The notes under the pieces were generated by a model. The model was not told the DNA's origin. It made no database searches and saw only the letters and a program-made list of their open reading frames with translations. Below, piece after piece: positions 2,887 to 62,063 of a stretch of DNA of 64,000 bases. Positions within the stretch are counted from its first letter, which is position 1; each line of letters begins with the position of its first letter. Source of the stretch: Arthrobacter sp. 260 (GTDB lineage: Bacteria; Actinomycetota; Actinomycetes; Actinomycetales; Micrococcaceae). The position numbers and the translations under genes were made by a program. The stretch is from assembly GCF_013116745.1 (NCBI RefSeq), contig NZ_JABFOE010000012.1:62001-126000 (forward strand), written 5' to 3'.

Positions 2887-3674
2887 CGGCTTCCAACCAA
2901 CCCATCACCGTCCATTCATTTTCCACGGCCGCAGACAACGGATACCGAGCCCTCGCCGACCTAGCTACCGCCGCCGAGGGTACCGACTACCGGGTCGTCG
3001 GTGGACACATGGTCCAGCTCCTGCTCTGCGTCTACCCCACCGAACAGGCTGCCGTCCGCGGAACCTCCGACGCAGATGGAGGCATCCCTGAACCGGTGGC
3101 CGCCGGCATGAAGCTGCATGAGGTCCTCCTCTCAAAGGACTACACACCCACTTCTGGAGCACACTACGTGCGAGGTGAAGACGACGACGCCGTCGAGATT
3201 GACCTCCTCGTGCCCTTGCAAGCCGCCGGGTCGCGGCAGCAGGAACTCGGAGGACGCACCTTCGACGCGATCCCCGGTCTCGGCCTCGCCTTGGCATCGG
3301 ATCCGCTGATGCTCGACGTCACGGCGCAGCTGTCCGACGGCGACGTTCTGCAGTTCACCGTGCCCATCCCCAACCTCGAAGTCGCCGTCGTCATGAAGGC
3401 GTTGGCTACGACCACCCGATCTGCACCGAAGGACGTCTACGACCTCTGCACTCTCTTCGAGATCCGGCACGAGCATAGAGAAGCTTTGGGTGCCTGGCGG
3501 TTATCGGACCCGGAGGCAGTCTCGAAGGGCACGAGAAAGACTGCCGCAAGAGTGTTACACGGCTTGGTAATTCAAGGACAACGCAACCAGCTCAGCACAT
3601 TCGAGTCGCCTACCAACCCTGCGCGATTCGCCCAGCTGATCCGCACACACGTGGCGCAGCCGCCGGCACGGTAG
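2883..3674 (+). CDS. AbiEii-like nucleotidyltransferase, putative type IV toxin
   Basis: A 263-aa protein starting inside the stop of the upstream gene. It carries a minimal nucleotidyltransferase signature: VVGGHMVQLL at about residues 38-47, with the Gly-Gly of the first motif, followed by RGTSDADGGI at about residues 59-68, which fits the R-x-T-x-D-x-D pattern of AbiEii/DUF1814 enzymes. A later KDVYDLCTL at about residues 181-189 also recalls the KD.YDL motif of that family. Such toxins transfer nucleotides to targets such as tRNA and arrest growth, giving plasmid maintenance or phage abortive infection. The antitoxin-first order is the usual AbiE arrangement. Substrate and activity are inferred only. 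Confidence 0.65.
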   Translation: MTASNQPITVHSFSTAADNGYRALADLATAAEGTDYRVVGGHMVQLLLCVYPTEQAAVRGTSDADGGIPEPVAAGMKLHEVLLSKDYTPTSGAHYVRGEDDDAVEIDLLVPLQAAGSRQQELGGRTFDAIPGLGLALASDPLMLDVTAQLSDGDVLQFTVPIPNLEVAVVMKALATTTRSAPKDVYDLCTLFEIRHEHREALGAWRLSDPEAVSKGTRKTAARVLHGLVIQGQRNQLSTFESPTNPARFAQLIRTHVAQPPAR

Positions 3675-3756
3675 ACCCTCGCCGCCAATCAGCAACCGGC
3701 GAAGGACGACCCCAGCTGACTACAACGACAGGGATACCATTTGACGAAACCGTTGA

Positions 3757-4029
3757 GCTGCTGGCACTGCGCCGTTGGAGGCCTCCAGCGGCAACCACAA
3801 CCGGCACAGACTCAACACCGGAGGTAACCGGCAACTGAACTCCGTGCTGCACACCATGGCTGTCTGTCAGAGCCGCGACCCCGGGCCAGGCCGGGACTAC
3901 TACCTCAAGAAAATCAGTGAAGGAAAATCGCCCCGCGAAGCCCGCCGAGCACTCAAACGACGCCTCTCCAACGTCCTCTACCGACAGATTCTGCACAACC
4001 ACCACCACGCCGAAAAGACCGCCGATTGA
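3757..4029 (+). pseudogene. IS110-family transposase, C-terminal remnant
   Basis: In frame from 3757 the translation reads GTAPLEASSG, then HRLNTGGNRQLN, then ISEGKSPREARRALKRR. These are hallmarks of the C-terminal Transposase_20 domain of IS110/IS1111 enzymes, including the Ser-Gly-containing SSG motif. An in-frame stop lies at 3754-3756 and the RuvC-like DEDD half is absent, so only about the last 90 residues survive. No flanking repeat or attachment core was recognised. It is a dead insertion sequence directly behind the AbiE-like pair, a sign of past transfer. Confidence 0.8.
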
Positions 4030-4375
4030 CACACAGAGGCGCTGTGAGGTCACGCCACCGAGCCATTCGCATGCGTTAGCACCACCCACCAGGTCGACCA
4101 ATCGGTCGAAGGACAGCAAAATCGCGTCAGGCTTACGGTGACTCAAACCCAGCAGGTGGTGCCACCTACATCCTCACTGGCTTACGGGCGCCCAAATTGT
4201 TTCGTCACTACGCGTGCCGAGCCCGATTCGTGGACCGGGCTCGGACAAACCGAAATGTCGGAATCGCGATCCTAGCCGTGGCCGGAATTCTCACCGTCAG
4301 CATCTCCTCCCTGGGCAGCGCCCTTGTACGATGTCAGCTTCGGCTCGGCCCCTCCAACAAGGCAGGAATTGCAAA
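4030..4375. other. Intergenic region upstream of DUF1622 gene
   Basis: About 345 bases without a convincing gene. An open frame enters from 4214 and continues in frame into the DUF1622 gene, but its first ~54 codons look like non-coding DNA (basic, low-complexity, no hydrophobicity) and the ribosome binding site lies at 4361-4367. Confidence 0.4.
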
Positions 4376-4762
4376 GTGGCATTTCAGGAAGTGATGGAAG
4401 GAATCGGTAAGGCGGTCGATGCTGCAGGCGTTGCCGCGATAGTCATCGGCATCGTTGTCGCTAGTCTTATCGCCGCTGGCGCCCTTCTACGACGGCGGAA
4501 AACCGAAGGACACAGGACATACGAGACTTACCGACGAAGACTAGGTAGATCCATCCTTCTCGGCCTTGAGCTACTGGTAGCAGCGGACATCATTCGGACC
4601 GTTGCCGTAACCCCCACGTACGAATCAGTCGGAGTGCTGGGTCTAATCGTCTTGATCCGAACATTCCTCAGCTTCTCGCTTGAACTCGAAATCACCGGCA
4701 AATGGCCGTGGCAAAAGTCTCAAGCTACCGACCAAGCACCTAAACGAACCCCAGGCCCCTGA
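4376..4762 (+). CDS. DUF1622 family membrane protein
   Basis: I start this 128-aa protein at GTG 4376 because GGCAGGA lies eight bases upstream. It has three likely membrane helices: an N-terminal AAIVIGIVVASLIAAGALL, a middle LLGLELLVAADIIRTVAV and a third VGVLGLIVLIRTFLSFSL. The pattern LGLELLVAADII..V followed by R.FLSFSLE.EI.G.WPW is characteristic of the DUF1622 family, integral membrane proteins of unknown role often near transporters. It precedes a P-type ATPase on the same strand, separated by a terminator-like stem, so the two are probably expressed separately. Confidence 0.8.
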   Translation: MAFQEVMEGIGKAVDAAGVAAIVIGIVVASLIAAGALLRRRKTEGHRTYETYRRRLGRSILLGLELLVAADIIRTVAVTPTYESVGVLGLIVLIRTFLSFSLELEITGKWPWQKSQATDQAPKRTPGP

Positions 4763-4793
4763 CCTCCCTCCGATATAACAAACGATTGCACAC

Positions 4794-4830
4794 GAAGGGC
4801 GCACTGAGCTGCCGCACGGCTGCCCTTCTT
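4794..4830 (+). terminator. Stem-loop terminator after DUF1622 gene
   Basis: GAAGGGC (4794-4800) pairs with GCCCTTC (4822-4828), which is followed by TTTGT. The loop of about 21 nt can pair internally. The weak T-tract makes efficiency uncertain. Confidence 0.5.
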
Positions 4831-4987
4831 TGTCGTCACGGCATCAACTGGTGGTAGTCCCTCAGATTAGGAGTGTTTCCCGGCGGGATCGCCCCCGGAC
4901 CAGCCCTCCGACCCAGCTCCTTGCTGCTGGACCGATAACCTGAGCGTGGGGCGACTGTTCCAGTACTGCTGCGGAGGAGGATTCCCG

Positions 4988-7790
<2,803 letters not shown>

Positions 7791-10401: not shown

Positions 10402-11759
10402 TGCCCGGGCGGGACGCCGGACCGTCTGTTCGGTGCATCGGAGAAATCGGCAGGGTTGTTGGCTACCGCCACAATGGCTTGACAGGTCCCTACAAGGTTC
10501 GCAACCGGGCCGCCAAAGGCGACGAGGGTATCGCTCATTGCCGGGACCAGCAGGAGATTGGCGCCGGCCTCGGTCAGGGCGTGCACGGCGTGAGGATTGA
10601 GCAGGTCCCGGCAAATTGCCATTGCCACGTGCCACCCATCGTTGCTGACGTGGATGTGTAGCTGAGGCCAGCCTTCTGGCTGGATGTCTTCGTTGACTGG
10701 CCGGTCGGCGGGGGAATGCTTGTCCTGGGTTAGCGGGGCAGGGGCGCCGCGGAGGTAGGCGATGGCTGTGTTACGTCTGCGCGACGACCCGTCGTGCTCG
10801 TCGTCGTGATGGTAACTGCCGGCGACCAGCATCTTTAGCCCTCCGGTTCGGCACGTCCAGTCCTGCAACCGGGCGGCCAATGACTCGGTGACGCACAACT
10901 CGGGAAGCACGACGATGCTCGCACCGGATGTGACGGCCGCGCTGATTAGTCGGTCTATTTCCTGATGTTGTTTGTCTTCATTCTTCGGACGGATCGGGAA
11001 GGCCCGCCCGTGGCTGTCCGCCGGGAAGTGGAAATCAGCCAGAGTGCGGTTGGGATGGCAGGTTGCCACGATGGTTCCGGGGTCGAGGATTCCGGTGAGC
11101 TCGGTGGCGAGGCTGTAGTCGAAGATGACCTGGAATTGCGTGGCCCATTCCCCGGCAAGCCGGACGTGACGTGTCTCATCCAAACGGTTGGCCAGCCGCC
11201 ACGGAGGGGAGGTCGCCGGCATCGCGGTCACTTCCCTCAGATCGGGACTGTCGAGCGGGATAGGGTCGCCTACACCCGGCTGATAAGGGCTGCGGTGGCG
11301 GAAGGATTCCCGGAAGCTGTGGCAGTAGCGCTCATCCAACAATTCCGCCAGCAGGCGCGCCACCGCTACGGCGGGAAGGTCATCACCGTCGGTCAGCGCC
11401 GCCGCAAGTGCGCTGCGTACCTCCGGGCCTAGTTCGAGTTCAGTCAGTACGGGTGGCAGCGTCGATCGGACACCCGTTGCGATCAGCACTGCCCTGGCAC
11501 GGCAGTCTGGATCCTGCATCCGCTCCTGCAACACCCTGTGCTCGTCCCGGCATAGCTGCAGTAAATGTGTGAGGGTGACCAGCGGTTCGGTTTCGGCCGC
11601 GATGGCCGCCTGGATGGACGCAACACGCAAAGACAGCGGCAACGGCCGGGCCACGCAGGGGGAAGTGCCAGTTGCGTTGTCCGTTCCGGATACGACAGTC
11701 GGAAAGAGGGTGCGGCCGGTAGCACTGATTGCTCCGGCATCACAATTTTGCTTGTCCAT
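10371..11759 (-). CDS. Carbon-nitrogen hydrolase (nitrilase superfamily)
   Basis: Started at ATG 11759 because AAAGGAGG lies just upstream; the 462-aa product has about 260 N-terminal residues of unknown type. A nitrilase-superfamily domain follows. The catalytic Glu is in VVLPELCVTE, the Lys in LTQDKHSPAD and the nucleophile Cys in MAICRDLLNP, followed by AGANLLLVPAMSD. Such enzymes hydrolyse amides, nitriles or carbamoyl bonds; the substrate is unknown. The frame closes at 10371 while the typical C-terminal strand of the fold appears in the overlapping Nudix frame. A single missing base near 10390-10420, within GC-rich runs, would join the two into one nitrilase-Nudix protein. This could be a real mutation, programmed frameshift or assembly error. 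Confidence 0.75.
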   Translation of the reverse strand: MDKQNCDAGAISATGRTLFPTVVSGTDNATGTSPCVARPLPLSLRVASIQAAIAAETEPLVTLTHLLQLCRDEHRVLQERMQDPDCRARAVLIATGVRSTLPPVLTELELGPEVRSALAAALTDGDDLPAVAVARLLAELLDERYCHSFRESFRHRSPYQPGVGDPIPLDSPDLREVTAMPATSPPWRLANRLDETRHVRLAGEWATQFQVIFDYSLATELTGILDPGTIVATCHPNRTLADFHFPADSHGRAFPIRPKNEDKQHQEIDRLISAAVTSGASIVVLPELCVTESLAARLQDWTCRTGGLKMLVAGSYHHDDEHDGSSRRRNTAIAYLRGAPAPLTQDKHSPADRPVNEDIQPEGWPQLHIHVSNDGWHVAMAICRDLLNPHAVHALTEAGANLLLVPAMSDTLVAFGGPVANLVGTCQAIVAVANNPADFSDAPNRRSGVPPGHYSGTQVSAS

Positions 11760-39022: not shown

Positions 39023-39250
39023 ATGGCAATTCAGAAACGCGCATCCGGTGGACGCCCATCTAAGGGGGACCGCCACGTTCTGACGACCCGAATCCCCACG
39101 GCTCAAGCAGAAAAACTCTTTGCCGTTGCCGATGCACAGGGGATCTCGGCCAGCTCCTTTATTGCCGAAGTCATGGCGGAAAAGCTGGCAACCATTGACC
39201 TTGAACAGCTAACTGGTCAGGAGACGCTGCCCCTCTACAAAGCTAGTTAA
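39023..39250 (+). CDS. Small ribbon-helix-helix-like DNA-binding protein
   Basis: A 75-aa protein. The pattern RPSKGDRHVLTTRIP then A.KLFAVADAQGISASSFIAEVMAEKL fits a CopG/ribbon-helix-helix fold: a beta strand with LTTRIP, helix, turn at GIS, helix. It parallels the 76-aa protein at 53986 (shared SKGDR, TR.P, A.A.GI..S...AE), and both follow a ParA-like gene. ATG 39023 is chosen by this alignment; longer frames start within the end of the ParA-like gene. It probably binds DNA at a partition or operator site and works with the ATPase. Confidence 0.7.
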   Translation: MAIQKRASGGRPSKGDRHVLTTRIPTAQAEKLFAVADAQGISASSFIAEVMAEKLATIDLEQLTGQETLPLYKAS

Positions 39251-49171: not shown

Positions 49172-49783
49172 CTATCTGGAAAAAAGTTTCTCACCGTCCG
49201 GACGCAGTTCCCCTGTGGGTGATACGTGCCGGTACAGGGTCTGCCGGGTGATTCCCAGCTCGTCGCAGAGGTCCCCGACCTTGGTGTCGGGCTGGCCCAT
49301 GGATGCCATGGCGAGCCGGACTTTGGCCGGTGTCATTTTGTAGGGCCGTCCGCCTTTTCGTCCGCGGGCCCGTGCCGAGGCGAGGCCGGCGAGGGTGCGT
49401 TCGGAGATGAGCTCGCGTTCGAATTCGGCCAGGGCCGCGAAGATTCCAAAGACCAGTTTCCCGGAGGCGGTGGTGGTGTCGATGGCGGCGCCCTGTCCGG
49501 TGAGGACTTTGAGGCCGATGCCCCGTTCGGTGAGGTTATGGACGACGTTGACCAGGTGGCGCAGGTCGCGGCCGAGGCGGTCGAGCTTCCAGACCACCAG
49601 GGTGTCGCCGTCCCGGAGGGCTTTGAGGCAGGCGGTCAGGTGCGGGCGGTCGTCGCGTTTGCCGGACGCCTTGTCTTCATACAACTGGCCGGAGTCGACG
49701 CCGGCGGCAAGCAGGGCATCGCGCTGCAGGTCGGTGGTCTGTGATCCGTCGGTTTTGGAAACCCGCATATAGCCGACCAGCAT
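49172..49783 (-). CDS. tnpR: Serine recombinase, Tn3-type resolvase
   Basis: Start chosen at ATG 49783 because GGAGGG lies eight bases upstream; 203 aa. The resolvase domain begins MLVGYMRVSKTDGSQTTDLQRDAL, with the nucleophile Ser in RVSK. WKLDRLGRDLRHLVN and FGIFAALAEFERELISERT are conserved catalytic and dimer regions. A C-terminal helix-turn-helix follows (VGDLCDELGITRQTLYRHV). It resolves transposition cointegrates at res. It is transcribed in the same direction as tnpA and lies downstream of it, away from the right end. Confidence 0.95.
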   Translation of the reverse strand: MLVGYMRVSKTDGSQTTDLQRDALLAAGVDSGQLYEDKASGKRDDRPHLTACLKALRDGDTLVVWKLDRLGRDLRHLVNVVHNLTERGIGLKVLTGQGAAIDTTTASGKLVFGIFAALAEFERELISERTLAGLASARARGRKGGRPYKMTPAKVRLAMASMGQPDTKVGDLCDELGITRQTLYRHVSPTGELRPDGEKLFSR

Positions 49784-49801
49784 CCGGTTGCCCTCCATCA
49801 T

Positions 49802-50007: not shown

Positions 50008-53000
50008 TCAGGCGTCCCGGTCCTCGTCGGGGTTCCGGAAGGGCCGAAGCTGTGTGCCGGCGGGGTCCGCGGTGAAAGAGTAGCGGCCGAGCATGTTGAT
50101 GTGTTCCGAGACCAGCGGGGAAAGGCGTTGCACGTCTTCTTCGCTTACGCCCACACCTCGGCCGGAGAGCTCGGTGAGCGCGGCGTCCATGTAGCGGGTG
50201 TTCCACAGGATCACCGCGTTGAGGACCAGGCCCAGGGCTCCGAGCTGGTCTTCCTGGCCTTCGCGGTAGGACTGTCGGATCTGCCCTCGGCGGCCGTGGA
50301 ATATGAGTCTGGCCAGGGCGTGCCGGGATTCCTGCAACGTCAACTGCGTATGAATCTGCCGGCGGTAGCCCTCGTCGATGTCGATGAAGTCCAGCAGGTG
50401 CCCGGTTTTGGCTATTCTGCCGTACTCCGCCAAAGCTTTTCCGAGCAGAGTCGGCGTCCCGCCGCTCTGGGTCACGCGCAGAATTTCCGAAGCGCGCACC
50501 GTCCCGGCGGTCAGGGATCCGGCCAGGCGGAGCATGTCCGGCCAGTTGGCCGTGATGAGTTCCAGATTGATCCGGTTGCGTCCGGCGACGGCGTTCAGCT
50601 GTCCATAGTCCGCCGTGGTGCCGATGCGCCAGAACCGTTGATCCGGAAGGCCGGCCAGGCGGGGCGAGAAGCGGTATCCAAGCAGGGTGAAAAGCGCGAA
50701 TACCTGATCGGAGTAGGAGGCCGTATCGGTGGCAACCATTTCGGGGCGTTGGCCGCCGTCGAGATCGAGCAGCCCGTCCAGAATATGCAGAGAGTCACGG
50801 ACCGTCCCGGGGACGACGACGGCACCCAGGCCCGCCACCTGGTCGTTGAGATAGTTCAGCCAGGTCAGGCCACGGCCCTGGCCGAAATAGCGCGGGTTCG
50901 CCCCGGCGTTGACGGTAGCCACCGGCACCACAAACCGCATTCCATCAACGGACGCCAGCAGCCCGGCACCCCAACGCTGGGCGAGGCCAAGACCGGACTG
51001 GGCCTGGATCAGCCGGGAGTTAGCCGCGCGCAGAGTGTCGGCGCGCACATAGTTTTGATCGACATGTGACAGGCGTCCACGGGTCAGTGCCGGATGTCCG
51101 TCCTTGACCACCGGGGCCAGGCCCACGTTGCACGCCTCGGCCACCAGAATGGCGGCGACGGAAACGCCGAGCTGCTCCATCCGTGCGGAGGCCTCCGAAA
51201 CGTGGCTGAATTCCGACAGGAAGCCCGTCCAGGAATGAACTTCCAACAGCACATCGGGCAGGTCTACCCGCGGCAGCATCGCCGACACCAACCCCCGAAG
51301 CTGCGTCAATGACTGAGGTACCGTCCTGGCTTCCAGGGGCGAGAGATGAACCTTGCCGTCATCGCTAACCCGTACCGCGGGATTGTCGGCCAATTGACCG
51401 GCCGCCGCCCGGTAGCGCGCGTCCAGGCTCTGGCGGACCCCCTCGAGGTGGGCCGTGGGATCTTCAGGCAGCTGGAGCGCTCTCAACGTCTCATGCTTGG
51501 TCGCCTGCCATGCCGGGCCGGCCAGCAGCCGTGCCCTGGGATCCCCCCAGCGGCGCCCGCCAAGAACGAAAATATCCCTGCGCCGCAGCGCTTTGTGGAC
51601 GGCATCCATTACCGCCACCGTATAGGCCCTGCGGTCGATCCCTTCGGAAGTGTTGATAAGGCGCTGCCAGGCTGGCGAGAGAACGGACAGATCAGCCTGT
51701 CCTGAACCGGTTTTACCGCCGCTCAGAACGTCCGGCAGCGCTGTCAGTGCCGCCAACGTCGGGGCCCCGCCTGCCGTGGCCCCAAAGGGCGCCGCCGATG
51801 CCAAAGCCGGCAGGAACGAACGCACCGTGGTGAACCGGCGCATCATCTCGGCCGCGGTGTCGCCCTCGCTGCCGGCCGGATTAACCAGCTCAGTCACAAC
51901 CTCCACCGCAGCACGCAACTCGGGCAACGAAATTTGCTCGGCAAGCACCGATGCGGCATCTGCCCCGGAAAATTCCGTATTGCCCAGGACCTCAACCAGT
52001 GTTTCCGCAGCTCTGGCCAGCTGCAGCGACGCCTTCGACAAGCGGGGCAGGGACTTCAACCGGGCTGTTGCGGATTCCCGCGCCGCTTTGCGGACCACAC
52101 GTTCGGTGACGATCGCATCCAGGGCATCACACAAATCATCGGCAACCTCGGCCGTCAACGCCCGCACGGCGCACAGCAGAGTGGCGCCCCTGCGTTGGCC
52201 CGACAGCCCCTGAAGCGCCGAGGCCTTGCCTGCCAGCCCATAGCGGGCTAGGGCGTTCATCCGGCCCGCGGGCACCGTCTCCAGGCCAACAGTCTCCGCG
52301 CCCAGAGCCCGCAGGCGTGCCAGCCGGTCCAGCTGCCGCAGCAATTCCGGCACCGATACCCTTGAAGGTCCCGTCCTCAGCCTTTCCCACGCGGTCAGCC
52401 TCGAACCCTCCTCAACGCGAAGCAGACCCTCCAGCTCATGGATCAAGGAGTGTCCGGCCGCGTCAACCAGCACGGCATAGAGCCGCTCATTCGCGCCGGC
52501 GCGAACCTCTGAAACCAGGCGAGTCAACGTGGAGACGCCCGGAAGAAGGACCTTCCGCTCACGCAACCAGACCGCCGCACGTTCAAACAAGCGAACCGGT
52601 CCTTCCGACGACGTCCACGCCCGGGCCGATAAAAACAGCTTCAGATCCTGGTAACTGGCCGGATCAGCGAATTCCACGTACCCGTAGACAGCGGAGATCT
52701 CCGCAGCATGCTCATAACCGGTCTGTGTCCGCTGCGCGTAAAGCTTGAGAACGGAGGCATCCGCAATCCCAAGTTGTCCAGCCAAGGACTCGACCACCGG
52801 CCAGGGAACAGCCAACGGATCCGTCAGGAACCGGCCCAAGACCCGCACCGTAGCCAACTGCACGGCGAATCCCAGACGGTTGTGCATCCCCCGGCGGCGG
52901 CCGGCTACCGCCAGATCGGCATCATCCAGCCAGCAAAAGCGTTCCAGGTCCTCCCGCGATACCTCATCAGGGAACCGCCCGAACCCGGCGGCCTGCTCAT

Positions 53001-53022
53001 CACTTAGAAAATCAACCGCCAT
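50008..53022 (-). CDS. tnpA: Tn3-family transposase
   Basis: A 1004-aa protein, the usual length. The N-terminus (FLSDEQAAGFGRFPDEVSREDLERFCWLDDADL) is a DUF4158 domain that contacts the terminal repeats. The C-terminal RNase H-like domain carries MVATDTASYSDQVFALF and FSPRLAGLPDQRFW, followed by the LARLIFHGRRGQIRQSYREGQEDQLGALGLVLNAVILWNT block conserved across the family. It catalyses replicative transposition. It starts at 53022, just inside the right terminal repeat, and reads leftwards to the res region. It appears intact. Confidence 0.95.
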   Translation of the reverse strand: MAVDFLSDEQAAGFGRFPDEVSREDLERFCWLDDADLAVAGRRRGMHNRLGFAVQLATVRVLGRFLTDPLAVPWPVVESLAGQLGIADASVLKLYAQRTQTGYEHAAEISAVYGYVEFADPASYQDLKLFLSARAWTSSEGPVRLFERAAVWLRERKVLLPGVSTLTRLVSEVRAGANERLYAVLVDAAGHSLIHELEGLLRVEEGSRLTAWERLRTGPSRVSVPELLRQLDRLARLRALGAETVGLETVPAGRMNALARYGLAGKASALQGLSGQRRGATLLCAVRALTAEVADDLCDALDAIVTERVVRKAARESATARLKSLPRLSKASLQLARAAETLVEVLGNTEFSGADAASVLAEQISLPELRAAVEVVTELVNPAGSEGDTAAEMMRRFTTVRSFLPALASAAPFGATAGGAPTLAALTALPDVLSGGKTGSGQADLSVLSPAWQRLINTSEGIDRRAYTVAVMDAVHKALRRRDIFVLGGRRWGDPRARLLAGPAWQATKHETLRALQLPEDPTAHLEGVRQSLDARYRAAAGQLADNPAVRVSDDGKVHLSPLEARTVPQSLTQLRGLVSAMLPRVDLPDVLLEVHSWTGFLSEFSHVSEASARMEQLGVSVAAILVAEACNVGLAPVVKDGHPALTRGRLSHVDQNYVRADTLRAANSRLIQAQSGLGLAQRWGAGLLASVDGMRFVVPVATVNAGANPRYFGQGRGLTWLNYLNDQVAGLGAVVVPGTVRDSLHILDGLLDLDGGQRPEMVATDTASYSDQVFALFTLLGYRFSPRLAGLPDQRFWRIGTTADYGQLNAVAGRNRINLELITANWPDMLRLAGSLTAGTVRASEILRVTQSGGTPTLLGKALAEYGRIAKTGHLLDFIDIDEGYRRQIHTQLTLQESRHALARLIFHGRRGQIRQSYREGQEDQLGALGLVLNAVILWNTRYMDAALTELSGRGVGVSEEDVQRLSPLVSEHINMLGRYSFTADPAGTQLRPFRNPDEDRDA

Positions 53023-53087: not shown

Positions 53088-53573
53088 AAGTACGACGTGC
53101 TGCGCTCGGATGAGAACGACGAAGGAGATCACGAGATCTCCGCTGATGAGGTGGACGCCGTTCACTCCGTGGCCGCGAAGTATTACCGCATGATCGTGAT
53201 GGACTCAGGGAACACCGCAAGGGCCGCGAACTGGCGTGCCATGATCGGCCACACCGATCAGCTCGTGATCCCCACAACGACCATGGAGGACCGCGCAGAG
53301 GCCGCGAAACTCACCCTGCAAACCCTCGCCGCACGAGACCAACTCTTAGCACAGCTGGCCGAAGACGCCGTCGTCATCATTTCCCAGTGGAAAGCCGAGG
53401 ACGGCGACGAAGCCCGCCGTATCGCTGACGGCTTCGCACCACTGGTCCGCCGCGTGGTCACCGTTCCTTATGACCAGGCACTCAAAGCCGGACGCATCCG
53501 ACACACCGCCTTAAAACCAGCCACACAACGCGCCTGGCCAGCCGCAGCCGGCGCGGTAGCGCAAGGACTGTGA
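53088..53573 (+). pseudogene. ParA/MinD-like ATPase, 5'-truncated second copy
   Basis: These 486 bases align without gaps to the last 486 bases of the ParA-like gene at 37443-38945, starting at the codons for KYDVLRSDE and ending at the same stop. Sequence changes are scattered, for example QLLAQLAED against EHSAQLAEN. The Walker A half is missing because the transposon right end abuts the first codon. A GTG at 53097 could start a 158-aa C-terminal fragment, but it would have no ATP-binding loop. It keeps Walker B (MIVMDSGN) and a small DNA-binding gene downstream. Confidence 0.85.
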
Positions 53574-53985
53574 CAATGGGACACGATCACGCGATATTTT
53601 TCTCACCAAGACAGGTGCAGAAGCGAGGGTCTTATTCAAGCCGCACTCCCCCGCCGCGCCGCATCCGACACGCCGGGGAAAATAATTTAACGGCCCCAAT
53701 GTTGCGGGTTCGGGGAATAGGGGCATTATTCCCATTAGGCGGTTCTGCTGGAAACTCCGCGCGGAATAAGGGACCAACCAAAATGACGCTAATGCCCCTA
53801 TTTTCCGGGCATCCCGGGAAAGCTTGTCGGGACTTTTTGGAAACTGCATCCGGTCCCAGAGTTCGACTGCCTTGCGTGATAGCTTCATGTCAACTGGAAA
53901 CAGCAACACATCTCACACGGTCAGCATGGCGGCCGAGGTAAACCGCCCAGTCGGTCCCCCGGCACGAGATTAAAAGGACAAGACG
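53574..53985. other. Spacer between truncated ParA copy and second small DNA-binding gene
   Basis: About 410 bases without a convincing gene. It contains the inverted pair of TAATGCCCCTATT elements listed separately and is AT-richer than its surroundings. It should carry the promoter of the 53986 gene. Confidence 0.5.
53716..53802. repeat. Inverted pair of the 13-bp TAATGCCCCTATT element
   Basis: TAATGCCCCTATT occurs at 53790-53802 on the plus strand and at 53716-53728 on the minus strand, 61 bases apart. The same exact 13-mer recurs at 56479-56491 and 56714-56726, linking this site to the array after the rep gene. The pair precedes the 76-aa DNA-binding protein gene and may be its operator or a partition site. 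Confidence 0.8.
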
Positions 53986-54216
53986 ATGACAGCAACAGGA
54001 AACCGCGGGGGCGGGCAGCGCAGCAAGGGCGACCGCATTTTCGTTGGGACCCGCCTACCCCGAGAACGCCGCGACCTTGTCGTTGCCATTGCCAAGGCCG
54101 AAGGCATCACCGTCAGCGACCTACTGGCGGAGATGGTCGACCGTGACCTGCAAAAACGTGACTGCAGCAACCTGGACATTCAGCAGCCCCTTCCATTAGG
54201 GCGAATGGCCTCTTAA
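53986..54216 (+). CDS. Small ribbon-helix-helix-like DNA-binding protein (second paralogue)
   Basis: A 76-aa protein with AAAGGAC before ATG 53986. It contains QRSKGDRIFVGTRLPRERRDLVVAIAKAEGITVSDLLAEMVDRDL, the same layout as the 75-aa protein at 39023 although only partly identical. A strand-helix-helix fold of the CopG type is likely. It follows the truncated ParA-like copy in the same order as the first pair. It is a good candidate for the protein that binds the TAATGCCCCTATT elements on either side of rep. Confidence 0.7.
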   Translation: MTATGNRGGGQRSKGDRIFVGTRLPRERRDLVVAIAKAEGITVSDLLAEMVDRDLQKRDCSNLDIQQPLPLGRMAS

Positions 54217-54222
54217 ACAAGT

Positions 54223-54247
54223 GAAGGCCCGCATGAAGCGGGCCTTC
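54223..54247 (+). terminator. Stem-loop after the second small DNA-binding gene
   Basis: GAAGGCCCGC (54223-54232) pairs with GCGGGCCTTC (54238-54247) around a 5-nt loop. It is analogous in sequence and position to the stem at 39257-39283; the T-run is missing in both. Confidence 0.7.
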
Positions 54248-54630
54248 CAAGCTTGTGGCTCGTATCCGGCAAGTTTTGCCGGCTAGACGGATACAGCCAA
54301 TCTCAAACAACCAACTACCAAAGAAAGGAAAGGTGATTCATAAGTAACCGAACCGAAGCTCTATTTACTTAGGCCCTAACCAAGCTCCGGAGAGCTGGTA
54401 CTTCAGATCTCCTACGAGTTACCGCAAGAGGGCCAGAGTCCTCATTTGTCCGCCATCACGACGGAAGGTCCTAGACCTATCCCCCTGAAGGGATTACTGC
54501 CATAGTACAGCAGCGCTCAATCGCGTTTCCAGACCATCACGGCAACACTCTGCCGCGTGTCGCGCCCGTCAACGGGACCCCAGCCGAAGCTTGGAACGCT
54601 CTTGCACGCCCGCTAGCCGGCCAGGCGCGG
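54248..54630. other. Leader region of the rep gene
   Basis: About 380 bases with small hairpins, such as AGCTC-CGGA-GAGCT near 54385 and several inverted CCGGC and AAGGTCC blocks. From 54475 a frame without stops leads in phase into the rep gene. Its codons look coding, but no ATG, GTG or TTG occurs before 54631. A replication-control RNA could be encoded here, as in other plasmids; nothing specific was identified. Confidence 0.4.
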
Positions 54631-56421
54631 GTGAAAATTTCCCGTGACCGCGGTAAGTCATACCCCGCGAACAGCGAACGGGACCTCACCGATCAGCTGC
54701 CCTCAGCCCCTGCTGCCGTAAGGATTTTCGGCCCCGACGGAACCTGCGCGGCCATCTTCCTGGACTTCGATGTGGCACCTGCAGGGCAATCCCAGGTGGA
54801 TGCCGACGTACGCCGTGTGACCAGCTGGTTGCACCGTCACGGAGCCCGCTGGATTGCCGATCACTCCCCCACTGGTGGACGTCATATTTACATCCCACTA
54901 GCTCAGCGTGTCGGATTCTCGGAGGCCCGCGATCTGGTTGAAGCCCTCGGTGCCGCTTGCCCGAGCTTGGATAAATCGCAGCACCAGAACCTCAAGCAAG
55001 GCTGTATGCGCGTTCCCGGATCCAGGCACAAGACCGGTGGCTACCAGGAATTGGATATGAGCCTGAACATGGCCTACGACGTCGTCCGTCGCCCGAACAG
55101 CGCCGATGTGTGGGAGGCCCTTGTCGGGGACCTGCGTGCAGAGATCACGGCCGTCCGACACCTACGCAGCGTCGAGCCATACACGAGTGCCATCACCGGG
55201 GTGAAGGAAGACCGCTCACTGGACACCTTGCCGATCACCGGGCTTTCCCACAGGATCCTCGACATAGCCCAGCACGGCATGTACGACACCGCCCGCTACC
55301 CCTCTGCGTCCGAAGCCCGAATGGCTGTCATCACTGCGGCCGCGGCTTCAGGGATGAAACTCACCGACGTCGAGCTGCGAGCACGCACCGGGATCTGGCC
55401 AGGCCTCGCGCAGTTCTACAGCCGCTACCGGACACAGTCCAGGTTCAAGTCGATGAAGGCCGACTGGGACAATGCTCTTCGGTTCCTCCAGGCCCAGCGA
55501 AAGCTCGAGAAGAAACAGCCCGATCTGGCGAAGGTTACCTATGACCATAATTCCCCCACAAGCCAGCCCCCTTCACACCGGGCAGGGTTACAGGGCGGTG
55601 ATTTTCTTGCCGGTACTTCAAACGGAAGTCCCGCTGAGCACCAATTCATCCTCAACTGGCGCAATGCCCTTACTATCGTGGAGCACCGCTACCAGGGGTC
55701 TAGGGCAGGGTTGGTCCGCAGGATGTTGCTTAGAGCTATGGGAGCGGCCGCCAGGATGACAGGTAGTAGGTTCATTGAGTTCGGGTCTCGTTCCTACGCC
55801 GTAGCCACCGGCCAGGATCACACCACCGTCGCCGCCCATCTTCGAGAGCTGAGAAGCGAGCCGAATGCCCTCGTTACTTTAATCGAGCGCGGCAAAGGAA
55901 CCCACGCCGACCAGTACATGCTCACCATCCCTGAGGACCTGATCGAACCAGCGGGAAGCCTGGCATGGAGGAAGGGCAAGATTCATGCGCTCCGTGCCGC
56001 CTTCCGTGAGCTTGGATTACCCGCTGCCTACATTTACGAGGAACTTGAGCGAGCCCCACTCCTCTGCACCACCGCCGAGTTGGTTCGAGCCACCGGAATG
56101 AGCCGGACCGCCGTGAGCGAAGCCCTTGAGATACTAGCCGCCTGGAACCTCGCCACCCGCTCCCCCGCCGGCGCCTGGTCAGTGAACGTCACCGCCAACT
56201 TGGACCTCATCGCTGAGCAGCTCGGGGTCATGGACCAAGTACACGCCCAGATAGCCCGCCACCGCGCCGAACGAGCACGCTGGCGTCAATGGCTGGGTTC
56301 ACGGATCCTGGCTACCCTTGAGCCCCTCTCCCCCGGTGAGGACTACCCCTGGGATGTCTACGAAAGACCATCTGATGACTGGGAACTTGCGGACTTGGCT
56401 TTCTCTGCCCGCAGCGGGTAA
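54631..56421 (+). CDS. Plasmid replication protein with archaeo-eukaryotic primase-like domain
   Basis: A 596-aa protein from GTG 54631. The N-terminal ~170 residues carry AIFLDFDVAP (the DxD metal motif) and HSPTGGRHIYIPLAQ (the sxH motif) of AEP primases, then HQNLKQGCMRVPGSRHKTGGYQELD, as in Prim-Pol-type replication proteins. The C-terminal part has at least one winged-helix stretch (TTAELVRATGMSRTAVSEALEILAAWNLATRSP). Such proteins start plasmid replication by binding the origin and priming. It lies between repeat clusters of the TAATRCCCCTATT motif and upstream of parA. The reading frame is open for 52 codons before the GTG, so the true N-terminus may be longer. Confidence 0.8.
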   Translation: MKISRDRGKSYPANSERDLTDQLPSAPAAVRIFGPDGTCAAIFLDFDVAPAGQSQVDADVRRVTSWLHRHGARWIADHSPTGGRHIYIPLAQRVGFSEARDLVEALGAACPSLDKSQHQNLKQGCMRVPGSRHKTGGYQELDMSLNMAYDVVRRPNSADVWEALVGDLRAEITAVRHLRSVEPYTSAITGVKEDRSLDTLPITGLSHRILDIAQHGMYDTARYPSASEARMAVITAAAASGMKLTDVELRARTGIWPGLAQFYSRYRTQSRFKSMKADWDNALRFLQAQRKLEKKQPDLAKVTYDHNSPTSQPPSHRAGLQGGDFLAGTSNGSPAEHQFILNWRNALTIVEHRYQGSRAGLVRRMLLRAMGAAARMTGSRFIEFGSRSYAVATGQDHTTVAAHLRELRSEPNALVTLIERGKGTHADQYMLTIPEDLIEPAGSLAWRKGKIHALRAAFRELGLPAAYIYEELERAPLLCTTAELVRATGMSRTAVSEALEILAAWNLATRSPAGAWSVNVTANLDLIAEQLGVMDQVHAQIARHRAERARWRQWLGSRILATLEPLSPGEDYPWDVYERPSDDWELADLAFSARSG

Positions 56422-56478
56422 CCGCTCCCCATCAGCCTGTTTCTCTGGAACTTTCAGTTCTAACAGCCCCAACAAAAC

Positions 56479-57336
56479 TAATGCCCCTATTGGAAGCAAA
56501 GGTTCTAACGGTCCCATTTCAATCTAAGGAGGGATCGACTGGTTGGGCTAGCCACTCCCCCACCTAGGTACTGCCCGCGCAGGATTGGCCAACCCCTCCA
56601 GTCTCCTGTCCCCTGAATGAACACGTTGGGCGCCGGGTGCGTCAACTAGGACCTTCCAAGCCCTACCACTCCCCCACCTCTAGAACCATTGGTGACAACA
56701 GTGCCAAGGCACCTAATGCCCCTATTACACCCATTGGTACTACGACAGCCCACCCGACGTCTGACAGACTTCGTAATGGTGTGTTGTCACTGATACCCCT
56801 GATGGTTCTAACAGACACAACAGAGTCAAAGCCCCTATGACCCACAACACAGGCATCACCTACAACAGGGTTATTCCCCCTAACGCCCGTAACGCACCTA
56901 ACAGGTACAACACCCCTATAACCTGAAATGGACCTAATAGGGGTATTAGGGGTGAAAGCTACGTACCTCGGACCTTCGCTTTGATAGGACACTTTTAGGA
57001 TCGCTTGGGGTCACTAGCTCATCGGGGCCAGGCATACCGATTCGTCATGCGTCCAGGTGTCCGATACAACCAGACCGCGCACCGTTGATACCCCTAACAC
57101 ATCTATCGGTGACAACACCCCTAACAGGGGTATTAACTCTTGAGCAACCAATCGAAGTAATACCCCTATTAGGGGTGATGAGTGCATTCCATGGAAGAAT
57201 CGGCTGTCTCCCCTGGTCGACTCTCATGCCCCTAAAGCCGCTAAAGCCCCTAATGGCGCGCATGGATCCAACAGCTGCAATAGAACCAATGCCCCTAATA
57301 CTTCTGATGACACGAACGGCAGTAATAGGGGTATTA
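56479..57336. repeat. Dense TAATRCCCCTATT array between rep and parA (iteron- or centromere-like)
   Basis: In a non-coding stretch of ~1.1 kb the 13-mer TAATGCCCCTATT occurs at 56479 and 56714, and TAATACCCCTATT at 57158 (plus) and at 56936 and 57324 (minus). Near matches lie at 56791, 56828, 56908, 57086, 57115, 57123 (minus), 57224, 57242 and 57287, all with the CCCCTAA or CCCCTAT core. Some are arranged as back-to-back palindromes (CCCCTATTAGGGG, CCCCTAACAGGGG). The position between rep and a parA/RHH operon points to an origin with iterons or a parS-like centromere. Confidence 0.85.
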
Positions 57337-57503
57337 GGGTTAGGGTTGCAATTGGAAATTGTTTCCAGTTGCACCGGGCGTGGCTCACACAGGGGAGTCA
57401 CCCCGAGGCTACTCTGGTGAACATCGGTGCCGGCCGGTGGATTTTTTGCTACCCGCTGGTTTGGTGCTGCAACGATCCATTTGGCTAAGAGAGGTTCCGG
57501 GAC

Positions 57504-58331
57504 ATGCCGGCACGAGTGATAGCGGTCTGCAACCAGAAAGGCGGGGTAGGTAAAACCACCCTCGTCACAGGTTTGGCCGAGGTCTTTGCGCAGAATCTGG
57601 GCAAGACTGTACTCGTCATCGATGCCGACCCTCAGCGGAATACCACTTCAGCCCTCGGAATCGACAACCCTGAGTTCACTCTGAACGACGTCCTCTACGG
57701 CGACGCGGAGCAGAACCAGAAGATCACACCTGGCATCGCTGCCGACGCCATCATCTCCACGGGCGAAGCCTGGCTGCCTCGTACGGAGCAGGGGGAGGAC
57801 TACCCGCCCATCTCCCTCATCGCGGCCGAGCGAAACCTTGCCTCCCGGGAGCGCGACTCCATGATGGCCAGAGAGCACCGGTTGAAGACTTCACTCAAGG
57901 GCGTCACCGATGTGTTCGACATCGTCCTTATCGATTGCCCGCCGTCGCTCGGGCTCCTGACCATCAATGCACTCACTGCTGCCACTCATGCTCTGCTAGT
58001 GACTGAGCCGCGTGTGTCCTCAGTCGAAGGGCTGACCGAGATCGTTGCGACCATCGGTGAGGTCCAGGACAGCCTCAATGAGGACATCGAAGTCATCGGC
58101 GTGGTCATCAACAAGGTCCGCAAAGGTCGCAGCGACCAGGTCCATTGGATCGACCGGGTCGAAAAAGATTTCGGTGATGCAGTGCTCACACCTCATCTCC
58201 CAGATCGCGAGCTATTCGCCAGGGCACAGGCTGCAGCGCAACCCCTGAGGAACTTCGGATCGGCCACCCGGCCGCTTCGTGATGACCTGCAGCGGCTTGC
58301 CGAAGCGATCTGGAAAGAAAGCGAAGCATGA
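57504..58331 (+). CDS. parA: Plasmid partition ATPase ParA
   Basis: A 275-aa protein with AGAGAGG upstream of ATG 57504. It is a classic small (type Ib-like) ParA: Walker A VCNQKGGVGKTTLVTGLAE directly at the N-terminus without a helix-turn-helix domain, then VLVIDADPQRNTTSAL, Walker B IVLIDCPPSLGLLTINAL, and EPRVSSVEGLTEI. It would move plasmid copies along the nucleoid together with its DNA-binding partner, whose gene overlaps its stop as ATGA. The repeat array immediately upstream is the likely centromere and possibly also the operator of this operon. Confidence 0.93.
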   Translation: MPARVIAVCNQKGGVGKTTLVTGLAEVFAQNLGKTVLVIDADPQRNTTSALGIDNPEFTLNDVLYGDAEQNQKITPGIAADAIISTGEAWLPRTEQGEDYPPISLIAAERNLASRERDSMMAREHRLKTSLKGVTDVFDIVLIDCPPSLGLLTINALTAATHALLVTEPRVSSVEGLTEIVATIGEVQDSLNEDIEVIGVVINKVRKGRSDQVHWIDRVEKDFGDAVLTPHLPDRELFARAQAAAQPLRNFGSATRPLRDDLQRLAEAIWKESEA

Positions 58332-58933
58332 GGACCGAGCCGGCCCCCAGTAGGGGAGGAGGCACGAACCCTCTCGATGCTTTGAAACGCGGACGCTTGG
58401 GAAAGGCTGCACAGCGCGGCGTTGTCGAAGATATGACAGCCGAACAGCAGGCCGCATCTGAGCCTGCGGCGGAGCCTGCCCCTGCGTCAGCTGTCGTCCC
58501 CACGACTGCAGAGCAGCTCGCTCAGCAGGCTGCCGCTGTGGAAGAGACTGCTCCTGCCGTGGTCACGCCAGTACCGCAGTCTCCTGCGGCTGTTCAATCG
58601 TCCGCTACGGAGCCTGCGGCTGCTACACCTGCTGTTGTTGCAGAGGCTGCGGCTGCGGCCGCGCCGCCTACTGAAGTTGTTGCTCCTCCGGCGACGAAAT
58701 CGCCGGAGGACAAGCCCGTCAAGGACTCGTTCTATCACTCCAAGGAAAGTCACCGCAGGCTACGCTCGACCTACCTAGAGACACGACATCTGACCAAATA
58801 CAAGTCATTGTCTGACTTCATTTCATCGCTCATCGACCAGGAGTGCACCCGTCTGGAGGAGCTGTACAACAACGGTGAGCCGTTCAGTACTGATCCGAAC
58901 GAGATGCCTCGCGGCAGGCCTGTCGACGGCTAG
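58328..58933 (+). CDS. ParA partner: centromere-binding protein with C-terminal ribbon-helix-helix-like domain
   Basis: A 201-aa protein coupled to parA by a four-base overlap. Residues 1-45 are basic (NPLDALKRGRLGKAAQRG). About residues 45-130 are an Ala/Pro/Val/Glu-rich disordered linker. The C-terminal ~65 residues (DSFYHSKESHRRLRSTYLETRHLTKYKSLSDFISSLIDQE) have the strand-helix-helix pattern of RHH/ParG-like binding domains. The basic N-terminus could stimulate ParA ATPase, as arginine-finger tails do in ParG. The cognate site is presumably in the array at 56479-57336. Confidence 0.75.
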   Translation: MRTEPAPSRGGGTNPLDALKRGRLGKAAQRGVVEDMTAEQQAASEPAAEPAPASAVVPTTAEQLAQQAAAVEETAPAVVTPVPQSPAAVQSSATEPAAATPAVVAEAAAAAAPPTEVVAPPATKSPEDKPVKDSFYHSKESHRRLRSTYLETRHLTKYKSLSDFISSLIDQECTRLEELYNNGEPFSTDPNEMPRGRPVDG

Positions 58934-59486: not shown

Positions 59487-60908
59487 ATGTCTGTTCTCGA
59501 AATGATCGACCCCACCACCTTGACCATCGACGCCAACGTTCGCGCTGACGTGCAGCTAGACAAGGCATTCCTGGCCTCCATCAAAGAACACGGAGTAATC
59601 CAGCCAGTCGTCGCCCACCGCACCGACAGCGGGGGAGTGCACGTCCTGTACGGACAGAGGCGCAGCCTCGCCGCCGTAGAAGCGAAGCTCGACCTGATGC
59701 CCGTCTACGTGGTCGAAAGCCTCACAGAGGCCGACAGGTTAGCTAAGCAGGTCGTGGAAAACGACCAGCGCCAAGGACTCACCGACAACGACCGCGCCGG
59801 AGCGTTCCACCAGCTTTCCCTACTCGGAGTCTCAGCTACCCAGATCGCGAAAAAGACCGGCGCGAAAAAGGCCACCGTGGACGCGGCACTGAAAGTCCGG
59901 GCCGACGACACCGCCAGCGCAGCACTCGCCCAGGGCATGACACTGGACATGGCCGCAGTGATCGAGGAATTCAGCGGCGACGCCGAAGCGATCACCAAAC
60001 TCGAAACCACCGCCGCGCACAACCCTCAGAGCTTTGACCACACCGCTCAACGGCTCCGCGACGACCGCACCCGCGCCGCGCTCATGGCCGAAGCAGCGGC
60101 CACCGTCACCGCCCACGGACTGAAGATCGTTGACGAGGATCTGAACTACTACGACTACAAAGGCCCCATGGCGAATATCCGCGACCTGCGCACCATCGAA
60201 GGTGTTCCACTCACCGACGACGACGCGGACGCCGCGCACATCGGATTCAGCTACAACGGGGAAGTACGCATCACCTTGGTCAATACCGACTGGAAAGCAG
60301 CAGGATTCACCAAACCCGGCGCCACCCGGTCAGGACCAATGACCGAGGACGAGAAAGCAGAACGCCGCCGCGTGATCGAAAACAATAAAGCATGGGACGC
60401 CGCCGAAACGGTCCGCGTGGACTTCCTCAAAACCCTGCTCAAAGGCAAAACAGCCCCGAAGAACGCTCTGCGGTTTATTGCCCAGTCAATGGGAAATCAC
60501 TCCTACACCGTCGCTGACGGCCTCTCCAAGCACACCGGATTCGCCGCCGAACTACTCGGAGGCAAAGACGGCTTCGGCGAGCTGGCGAAGATCACCGCCA
60601 AGCCCACCGGACGCCACGAAACCAACACCCTCGCCGTCATCCTCGCAGGATTCGAAAAGAGCCTCACCCGCCAGTCATGGCGCAACCCGAGCGGCACCGC
60701 CAAGCACTACCTGACCCAGCTCACCACATGGGACTACACCCTCAGCGAGGTTGAAACCATCATCACCGACCACGGAAACACAGAAACACAGGAATCCGTG
60801 AAGGCAGAAACCAGTGCAGTGCAGGAGCCGGGGGAGACATTCGCGCAAGTGCCGGCCGACGAAGAAGAACTCACCGCCGAAGAAGCCGACTACGCCGAAG
60901 AAGCCTAA
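59487..60908 (+). CDS. ParB/RepB/Spo0J N-terminal-domain protein
   Basis: A 473-aa protein; ATG 59487 is preceded by AGGAGC at somewhat long spacing. Residues ~8-95 form a ParB nuclease-type domain (IDANVRADVQLDKAFLASIKEHGVIQPVVAHRT and VLYGQRRSLAAVEAKLDLMPVYVV), followed by the helix-turn-helix-bearing NDQRQGLTDNDRAGAFHQLSLLGVSATQIAKKTGAKKATVDAALKV. The C-terminal half is unlike chromosomal ParB and ends in an acidic tail (DEEELTAEEADYAEEA). No ParA is adjacent, so it may be a DNA-binding regulator or ardB/KorB-like plasmid protein. Its leader is shared with the DUF3560 gene at 63155, suggesting joint control. Confidence 0.85.
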   Translation: MSVLEMIDPTTLTIDANVRADVQLDKAFLASIKEHGVIQPVVAHRTDSGGVHVLYGQRRSLAAVEAKLDLMPVYVVESLTEADRLAKQVVENDQRQGLTDNDRAGAFHQLSLLGVSATQIAKKTGAKKATVDAALKVRADDTASAALAQGMTLDMAAVIEEFSGDAEAITKLETTAAHNPQSFDHTAQRLRDDRTRAALMAEAAATVTAHGLKIVDEDLNYYDYKGPMANIRDLRTIEGVPLTDDDADAAHIGFSYNGEVRITLVNTDWKAAGFTKPGATRSGPMTEDEKAERRRVIENNKAWDAAETVRVDFLKTLLKGKTAPKNALRFIAQSMGNHSYTVADGLSKHTGFAAELLGGKDGFGELAKITAKPTGRHETNTLAVILAGFEKSLTRQSWRNPSGTAKHYLTQLTTWDYTLSEVETIITDHGNTETQESVKAETSAVQEPGETFAQVPADEEELTAEEADYAEEA

Positions 60909-61340: not shown

Positions 61341-62063
61341 TTACGGGCCCCAGTAGCCTCCGGCGATGGGAGAGTTCAGCGACCTGACCCTAAACTTTGT
61401 CACCGCCGCCACATTGCCCCAAGGGATTGATGCGCCGCTATCAACGCGGCTCCTTGCGGTCCCCATCGCGTAGAAGGCAGACCATGTTCCCATGGTCGAA
61501 CCGTTGTAACCGCGGTAGTAACCGAGCCCCTGGCCTTCAGCCCACTGAGCAGTGGATGATGCAACGCTGTGCCAGTAATACAACCTGGTGTCGGCATTCA
61601 TGCCGATCTGGGAGCTACCCGAAAACTGGACCCAGCTATAGCCGGCTGAGTAGGTTCGCTGAGACATGACCGCGTATGCCGGTTCGTCTTGCACCTGTTC
61701 CACACTGTTCGGACGGGGAGACAGCATCCGAGCCTCATCCGGCGCGGCCTGGCCGCTGGTTTTCATTGCTCGCTGCTCAGCCACCATCGTCGTGAGCTGC
61801 TTCTGAGTCATGGCACCTGGCAGGGAGCCGTCGGAATCCGTGACGACCACAACAGTTTCCGGCGAAATTTTGCCCGTGGGCATGAAGGTTCTGCCGTCGG
61901 GGAAATGCTCCGTTTCGGGACTCTCTGGATTGACTAGAACATACCCATCGCCATGGACGGGGCTCATATCCACGGCTTTTTCCTGAGCTGCTTGACCAGG
62001 AACTGCAGAGCCGAGCACTAGAACTGCGGCGAGACTAATCGTCGCCAATTTAAGGTATTTCAC
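61341..62063 (-). CDS. Secreted protein, uncharacterised (240 aa)
   Basis: GTG 62063 is chosen because it starts a clean signal peptide (KYLKLATISLAAVLVLGSAVPGQAA, cleavage after QAA) and GGAGAGG lies 12 bases upstream. A longer frame from 62105 adds non-signal residues. The mature part has a linker-like first half and a C-terminal domain rich in Tyr, Trp, Ser and Gly (SQRTYSAGYSWVQFSGSSQIG, then WAEGQGLGYYRGYNGSTMGTW), suggesting a beta-rich exported fold. No known domain or catalytic motif was recognised. With a small membrane protein downstream and a lipoprotein upstream, it forms a surface-protein group between the two twin leaders. Confidence 0.6.
   Translation of the reverse strand: MKYLKLATISLAAVLVLGSAVPGQAAQEKAVDMSPVHGDGYVLVNPESPETEHFPDGRTFMPTGKISPETVVVVTDSDGSLPGAMTQKQLTTMVAEQRAMKTSGQAAPDEARMLSPRPNSVEQVQDEPAYAVMSQRTYSAGYSWVQFSGSSQIGMNADTRLYYWHSVASSTAQWAEGQGLGYYRGYNGSTMGTWSAFYAMGTARSRVDSGASIPWGNVAAVTKFRVRSLNSPIAGGYWGP

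Follow-up and report, generated by a model that had tools for sequence, protein, structure and literature searches.

Which protein reads the short repeats that surround the rep gene and precede parA on a contig of Arthrobacter sp. 260? The window examined here is the 64,000-nucleotide stretch spanning positions 62,001 to 126,000 of contig NZ_JABFOE010000012.1. An original prediction, made from its letters, described a repeated 13-mer that could represent either iterons or a parS array, to be read by Rep, by a 76-amino-acid (aa) protein, or by a 201-aa protein of the ribbon-helix-helix (RHH) type. Judging from the DNA and its predicted proteins, we consider it very probable that the array is a type Ib centromere (parS/parC) served by a ParB of the PF18064 kind. 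Under the same assessment, two small outlying clusters of the same units, here called outposts, would be a second target of this ParB, most likely tuning expression of the 76-aa regulator and rep.

A phased 9-bp array between rep and parA

The seven exact 13-mers were recovered as predicted, at 53716 (minus), 53790 (plus), 56479 (plus), 56714 (plus), 56936 (minus), 57158 (plus), and 57324 (minus), and none arose across 100 dinucleotide shuffles. The near matches and back-to-back palindromes reported with them are also real, with 11 matches at up to two mismatches versus 0.56 expected. The repeat unit, however, is not the 13-mer. Within the intergenic stretch 56422-57503, identity peaks at lags of 9, 18, and 36, and lag 27 is also raised. 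The actual unit is 9 bp long and consists of a 3-base A/T-rich spacer (AAT, ATT, AAC, GAT) and a 6-bp core, which in the window is mostly RCCCCT (commonest words ACCCCT, 10; GCCCCT, 6; GGTTCT, 4). The array occupies 56453-57341, between rep and parA, and comprises 57 in-phase units, 36 plus and 21 minus in one common frame. The in-frame model divides it into five runs:

56453..56515, run 1, 7 units
56679..56741, run 2, 7 units
56783..56953, run 3, 19 units
57087..57176, run 4, 10 units
57216..57341, run 5, 14 units, ending 162 bp before parA

The model score of the array is 195, compared to a mean of 30 and a maximum of 50 for 100 dinucleotide shuffles trained identically. Counted without any model, RCCCCT/AGGGGY pairs no more than 90 bp apart have a spacing divisible by 9 in 20 of 25 cases, and such pairs in opposite orientation are in phase in 10 of 12. 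Because both orientations share this phase, the back-to-back palindromes are adjacent slots filled in opposite directions. A plain two-strand expectation-maximization motif was discarded in favor of the in-frame model; units of both orientations overlap in one frame, and the motif therefore collapsed to a palindrome.

The array is confined. When the array model is scanned across the 64 kb, runs of more than five units are found only at 56453-57341. Beyond them, two clusters stand out (53716-53742 and 53782-53799), and all other places reach at most five units and a log-odds of 10.2. Nor is the motif scattered evenly through the genome, as the exact 13-mer has no further copy in the rest of the 3.9-Mb assembly. 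It is absent from all 37 other genomes of the genus that were searched, its matches in 226 fetched loci are confined to those cut from the window's own contig, and blastn of the array against a plasmid collection returned no match. Since the literal 13-mer was found in this plasmid alone, the proposed check by its conservation in relatives would mislead.

A ParB of the PF18064 kind as the likely reader

The genes around the array, all on the plus strand, are as follows:

53986..54216, plus, 76-aa gene, predicted RHH protein, CopG/ORF56-like
54631..56421, plus, rep, 596-aa putative replication protein with a winged-helix region
57504..58331, plus, parA, 275-aa Walker-type ATPase, PF13614
58328..58933, plus, parB, 201 aa, with a conserved N-terminal motif, an A/P-rich linker, and a C-terminal PF18064 domain

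ParA is small, with AAA_31 starting at residue 4 and no N-terminal DNA-binding domain, and parA lies directly upstream of parB with a 4-base overlap. The C-terminus of the 201-aa protein matches CB_ParB_C (PF18064; E 3e-6, 27.6 bits versus a cut-off of 27) as well as PDB entry 3no7 (E 1.3e-6), which we take to be the RHH domain of pCXC100 ParB. PF18064 is matched by 14 of 15 aligned ParBs, the window's among them. Because its C-terminus matches this centromere-binding family and 3no7, the 201-aa ParB is likely the reader of the repeats. It has no ParB_N match, unlike the cytidine triphosphate-dependent ParB/parS of the chromosomal type. The N-terminal motif, in which G10, K26, A27, and V32 are invariant among 15 sequences, fits a ParA-activating peptide by analogy with type Ib systems, as outlined in a review passage.

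The array core follows the ParB strand

Relatives qualified if they carried a 76-aa gene, rep, a long gap, parA, and parB of the same types. Of 32 loci run, 19 did so: the window, L008-L012, L031-L035, L063, L064, L066, L067, L069, L070, L071, and L073. Excluded were L065 and L068 (duplicates, with results as for L064 and L012), L013 and L014 (rep-only), and nine loci of another ParA clade; L072, L074, L075, and L080, which lack a ParA match, were left out. A further 80 loci contained three of this ParA/ParB clade (L093, L094, L095). Of these, L093 and L095 have contigs equal in length to those of L035 and L069, respectively, and L094 was analyzed and counted apart. In each of the 19, the 9-bp model gives the gap ahead of parA a higher score than any of 12 shuffles (weakest, L066, 81 versus 40). 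The frame and position of the array are what is conserved, not the literal 13-mer.

The residues expected to contact the core were located by alignment to 3no7 and to the relatives, the assignment as a beta strand following from the RHH fold:

58721..58741, plus, codons of the predicted DNA-reading beta strand of ParB, K132-S138, KDSFYHS

The commonest cores (a word and its reverse complement counted as one) and the corresponding ParB strands are as follows:

Window: core RCCCCT, strand KDSFYHS
L008, L063: core GGTTCC, strand KASFFQ(S/T)
L067: core GGTTCC, strand KTGIFQT
L070, L071: core GGTTCC with GCTTCC, strand KTSFHQP
L031, L034, L035: core ACTTCC, strand KTGYWEP
L032, L033: core TCTTCC with GGTTCC, strand KMGVWIP
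L009-L011: core TGCGCA with GGTTCC (GGTTCC commoner in L010 and L011), strand KTSFFQS, also found in L094
L012: core GCCTCT, strand KISYYQD
L064: core RCTGGY, strand KVTFYQD
L066, L069, L073: core GGTACC, strand KMS(F/L)APT

When 11 arrays were cross-scored, each was scored best by its own model, which is partly so by construction. The window array was scored second best by the L012 model (0.47 of its own score), and the L031 and L034 models are nearly interchangeable (0.87-0.88). Distances between core matrices rise with distances between ParB strands (rho 0.47, p 0.0005), and no such correlation is seen for the rest of the ParB domain (rho 0.09, p 0.20). When Rep, ParA, the 76-aa protein, or the remainder of ParB is controlled for, the strand retains a partial correlation at p 0.0005, the lowest value that 1999 permutations allow. 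The clearest single comparison is that of L031 with L034/L035, which share the strand and the ACTTCC core while the rest of the domain is 50% different and Rep is 36-38% different. L094 (Pseudarthrobacter albicanus), analyzed last, has the strand KTSFFQS and a 9-bp array in which TGCGCA (7) is the commonest core, followed by GGTTCC/GGAACC (4); TGCGCA is also prominent in L009-L011, the three loci with that strand. The cores thus track the ParB beta strand, with a contribution from shared ancestry.

In L094, 7 + 8 units at 10685-10826 stand just before the parA of a second, distant ParA/ParB pair, and this one plasmid may carry two 9-bp systems. The nine loci of the other ParA clade (L036-L040, L076-L079) gave codon-like models in most cases in the first model run. 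Over the 420 bp before parA, seven of the nine (not L076 and L079) score above 12 shuffles, some narrowly. By eye, strings of 9-bp units just before parA can be seen in L036-L038, L076, and L078; in L036 and L037, short strings with GTACT-like cores adjoin the parA start (within ~100 bp), a layout that may resemble the compact one of pCXC100.

Outposts upstream of a putative regulator gene

The two clusters outside the array lie ahead of the 76-aa gene:

53716..53742, outpost cluster 1, three in-frame units (minus, plus, minus), log-odds 13.7
53782..53799, plus, outpost cluster 2, two in-frame units, with the 13-mer at 53790 extending 3 bases beyond, log-odds 13.5
53877..53885, plus, candidate extended -10 of the 76-aa gene, TGA TAGCTT, picked by eye

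The scan across loci used models that had been trained solely on the gap preceding parA and were then run over the remainder of each locus, a cluster being a log-odds of at least 12. Across the 19 loci, the 600 bp before the 76-aa gene hold 29 clusters in 11,400 bp (0.16 expected) versus 3 in 214,072 bp elsewhere; the latter figure omits an additional 1.5 kb ahead of the gap in L011, L070, and L071. At least one cluster occurs in 17 of the 19 loci and two in 12, with starts between -428 and -204. L011 and L071 each have two 76-aa genes, and there the clusters precede the copy nearest the array and not the rep-linked copy, which indicates that outposts follow the regulator rather than rep. Inspection by eye shows T, S, or G before the strand R/K in the 17 outpost-bearing 76-aa genes (VGTR, VATR, VGSR, VGGK). 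An F takes that position (GFR, AFR) in L009, L010, L094, the rep-linked copies of L011 and L071, and 14 plasmids that share rep without this ParB. Outpost presence and regulator subtype go together.

The 76-aa protein is likely a copy-control regulator. Like CopG/ORF56 copy-control proteins, it is a small predicted RHH protein whose gene lies just ahead of rep. In the PDB, a profile built from 19 relatives matches ORF56 (2k9i, E 5e-4), Arc (E 0.011), and ParG (E 0.2), and two designed helical proteins score as well. In Pfam, RHH_1 is matched by 4 of the 19 relatives and RHH_5 by 3, and neither by the window's own protein. Unlike ORF56 proper, the protein reaches 16.3 bits with the NCBIfam ORF56 model, far under the 50-bit cut-off, and its copy-control role is a prediction. 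A second homologue at 39023-39235 of the window (40% identity over 63 residues), distant from any 9-bp array, has the strand VLTTR and no outpost.

A GGTGGTARTTTC-like element (up to three mismatches), which may be an extended -10, precedes the 76-aa gene in 16 of 19 loci, at a place similar to that of the window's candidate -10; this count was made without a chance control. The window, L034, and L035 lack the element, and the scan did not select the window's candidate site. A TGGAAACAG-like element (up to four mismatches, within 400 bp upstream) occurs in 12 of 19 loci and in a palindrome before parA in the window; as an operator of the 76-aa protein it was rejected, being too loose to claim and counted without a chance control. 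An imperfect palindrome, GCAATTGGAAATTGTTTCCAGTTGC, lies at 57348-57372, directly past the last array run, and has AACTGGAAACA in common with the 76-aa gene leader at 53892. At both promoters, the 76-aa protein may use these shared sites as its operator.

A precedent for ParB sites at a copy-control gene is copS of pSM19035 from Streptococcus pyogenes, which is such a gene. As described in PMC9499535, the delta/omega/parS system of this plasmid likewise pairs an RHH ParB with contiguous short repeats in either orientation, and its ParB sites lie at the par genes and at copS, where they overlap the copS promoter. The same text puts the minimum at four contiguous repeats, whichever of the tested orientations they have, and all five array runs of the window exceed it. 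The systems differ in that pSM19035 has 7-bp WATCACW units, in six sites of 7-10 repeats overlapping promoters, and the window has a period of 9 bp; omega was not among the matches of the window ParB in family and PDB sequence searches.

From these data, we infer ParB binding, ParA activation, and regulation through the outposts as follows. ParB dimers would occupy successive 9-bp slots, with paired beta strands reading the pseudo-symmetric 6-bp core; since each slot keeps the frame, the core could be read either way round. The filled array would recruit ParA and activate it via the conserved N-terminal peptide of ParB, and plasmid copies would move apart. The outposts at 53716-53799 would be a second ParB target ahead of the promoter of the CopG-like regulator and rep, and ParB bound there would tune the regulator-rep transcript, tying partition to copy control. 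With fewer repeats than the four-repeat threshold and a location ahead of a regulator gene, the window outposts are more likely to have a control role.

Several observations weigh against this account. The array units are degenerate, and the 19 loci include a number of close relatives (for example, L008/L063, L032/L033, L034/L035, and L070/L071). Core distance also correlates with Rep (rho 0.52) and ParA (rho 0.50) distance, and these partial correlations persist given the strand (p 0.0055 and p 0.0025, respectively), so shared ancestry contributes to the core pattern. GGTTCC turns up often in many arrays whose ParB strands differ, and strand and core are therefore not one to one. A single-sequence structure prediction of the ParB C-terminus gave one long helix (predicted template modeling score 0.32) that does not show the predicted strand, and a three-row prediction of the 76-aa protein had a predicted local distance difference test score of 64.5; neither result was used. 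No outposts are found in L009, L010, and L094. In the window, the outposts hold only three and two units, below the four contiguous repeats needed in pSM19035, and 77 bp separate them from the candidate -10 downstream; at this distance and with so few units, direct occlusion of the promoter is not obvious. Elsewhere, outposts reach nine units (L064), which weakens the argument from few units for a control role there.

The main rival for the outposts keeps ParB as the reader in both places and takes the outlying clusters as an extra centromere, or as sites for pairing or looping (handcuffing) near the origin, rather than as regulators of the 76-aa gene. The 77-bp distance favors it, as does the usual pairing of outposts. 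They nevertheless accompany a 76-aa gene close to parAB, and the rep-linked copies of L011 and L071 have none in front of them. We regard this alternative as a serious one, though less likely than not.

The array accompanies parAB rather than rep

The array adjoins rep, and Rep distance correlates with core distance, as would be expected for iterons of a replication origin bound by the 596-aa Rep. This possibility was examined with a rep-only set of 14 plasmids whose Rep is 53-57% identical and which keep the 76-aa gene; none is among the 39 records matching this ParB. Mostly they carry another parAB, reversed relative to rep; L089 has an unlike forward pair, L090 has none in the stretch seen, and the L092 stretch ends with its record 1.1 kb after rep. 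Of the 38 gaps scored, which were those of at least 200 bp, not one has 9 as its leading lag, in a test by which clusters of two to three units are hard to detect. Ten of the 38 beat 12 shuffles under the 9-bp model, strongly in L085, L087, L089, and one gap of L082, and marginally in L081, two more gaps of L082, L084, L088, and L090; their top lags are 4, 8, 11, 12, 16, 27, 36, or 37. Nearest to a 9-bp beat are 5256-5482 of L082 (lag 9 second, z 2.1) and 1923-2972 of L082 (lags 27 and 18; z 2.3 and 2.1).

A different replication-type gene can also stand before the same ParA/ParB type. In L011, L070, and L071, rep lies upstream of the 76-aa gene that is closest to the array, and in L011 and L070 such a replication-type gene intervenes between this 76-aa gene and the array. 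That of L011 is a PF03090 Replicase, and L070 matches both its pieces; L071 has no significant replication-type match of that kind. Together, the rep-only plasmids without 9 as a top lag and the different replication-type gene before the array in L011 and L070 indicate that the array follows parAB and not rep. Of the two options in the original prediction, parS with the 201-aa protein is supported by the PF18064/3no7 matches, the arrays, and the covariation, and we consider Rep iterons highly improbable.

Strong arrays of other periods occur in the rep-only set at 9056-11691 of L087 (period 8), 9102-10381 of L085 (4 and 8), 9330-10998 of L082 (8), and 9032-10174 of L089 (11). They precede (in L089, follow) their own parA-like genes, which suggests that a distinct repeat period comes with each par module. 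L082 (pYJN5-1) also has two tandem pairs of 76-aa gene and rep at 2973-7746, likely a replicon duplication or fusion.

We likewise consider it highly improbable that the repeats are read by the 76-aa protein, acting from them as a repressor of both rep and parA. In favor of this reading, the protein is itself of the RHH type, and clusters lie ahead of its gene. Against it, its strand is nearly constant (F/L-V-G/A-T/S/G-R/K) across the 17 outpost-bearing loci despite differing cores, and near-identical strands (SFV-G/A-TRV) accompany ACTTCC, GGTTCC, and GGTACC in L031, L067, and L073. The residue before the strand varies without tracking the core (S in these three loci). Once the ParB strand is controlled for, the 76-aa protein shows a weak partial correlation with the cores (r 0.16, p 0.10), and the rep-only plasmids have the gene without the array.

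Relation to known partition systems

Type Ib partition with a PF18064 ParB is a known kind of system. Its closest counterpart here is ParAB-parC of pCXC100 from Leifsonia xyli subsp. cynodontis, with which the window shares a homologous ParB C-terminal domain and a centromere upstream of parA; that centromere reportedly also has a 9-nt unit. The window differs in having 57 units in 0.9 kb, both orientations in one frame, and a distant outpost. A review, in the passage concerned, gives the pCXC100 centromere as direct repeats only, a further point against our assignment, and the same passage describes direct and inverted repeats for other type Ib centromeres. We therefore treat the direct-only arrangement as a property of one plasmid and not as defining type Ib.

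What is added to the known kind is the size and mixed orientation of the array, cores that change with the strand, and the conserved outpost. No report of these was found in the literature on pCXC100, RHH ParB repeats, and Arthrobacter/Micrococcaceae partition and replication, within a coverage lacking most subscription papers and the pCXC100 paper. An Arthrobacter plasmid survey mentions a predicted cis-located parS and reports that replication modules of Arthrobacter-type plasmids are hard to recognize (PMC6305408). Phased 9-bp arrays offer a handle for finding centromeres in such plasmids.

Across the relatives, position, frame, and proteins are maintained and the DNA word changes with a seven-residue strand, which makes these loci a natural series. 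Swaps of strands and arrays make it testable how an RHH ParB chooses its centromere and how incompatibility groups split. If the outpost is regulatory, this would be a second lineage beside pSM19035 in which an RHH ParB joins partition to copy control. Tentatively, and with a good deal of doubt, one may go further: in Micrococcaceae plasmids, the RHH ParB and its 9-bp centromere may have been recoded together repeatedly, giving separate compatibility groups, with the same ParB reading a conserved double outpost that controls the CopG-like gene, so that partition occupancy sets copy number. The recoded cores would be RCCCCT, GGTTCC, ACTTCC, TCTTCC, TGCGCA, GCCTCT, RCTGGY, and GGTACC, and seven strand residues would then predict centromere sequence.

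Neighboring genes

The contig is 128,667 bases long, and its first bases are not recovered in its last 2,667; its genes and plasmid relatives point to a plasmid origin. The 596-aa Rep presumably acts in replication, judging by its position and its presence on plasmids. Its earlier description as primase-like finds no support among Pfam, NCBIfam, and PDB sequences, which give just weak winged-helix matches.

Downstream of parB by 0.55 kb, 59487-60908 encodes a 473-aa protein with a ParB_N domain (PF02195, E 1e-8), possibly a separate ParB/KorB-like regulator. Upstream lie a large Tn3-type transposase (50008-53022) and a resolvase-like gene (49172-49801), both judged by eye, with the nearer edge of the region ~0.7 kb before the outpost. 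A 158-aa open reading frame at 53097 may be a remnant cut by that transposon insertion.

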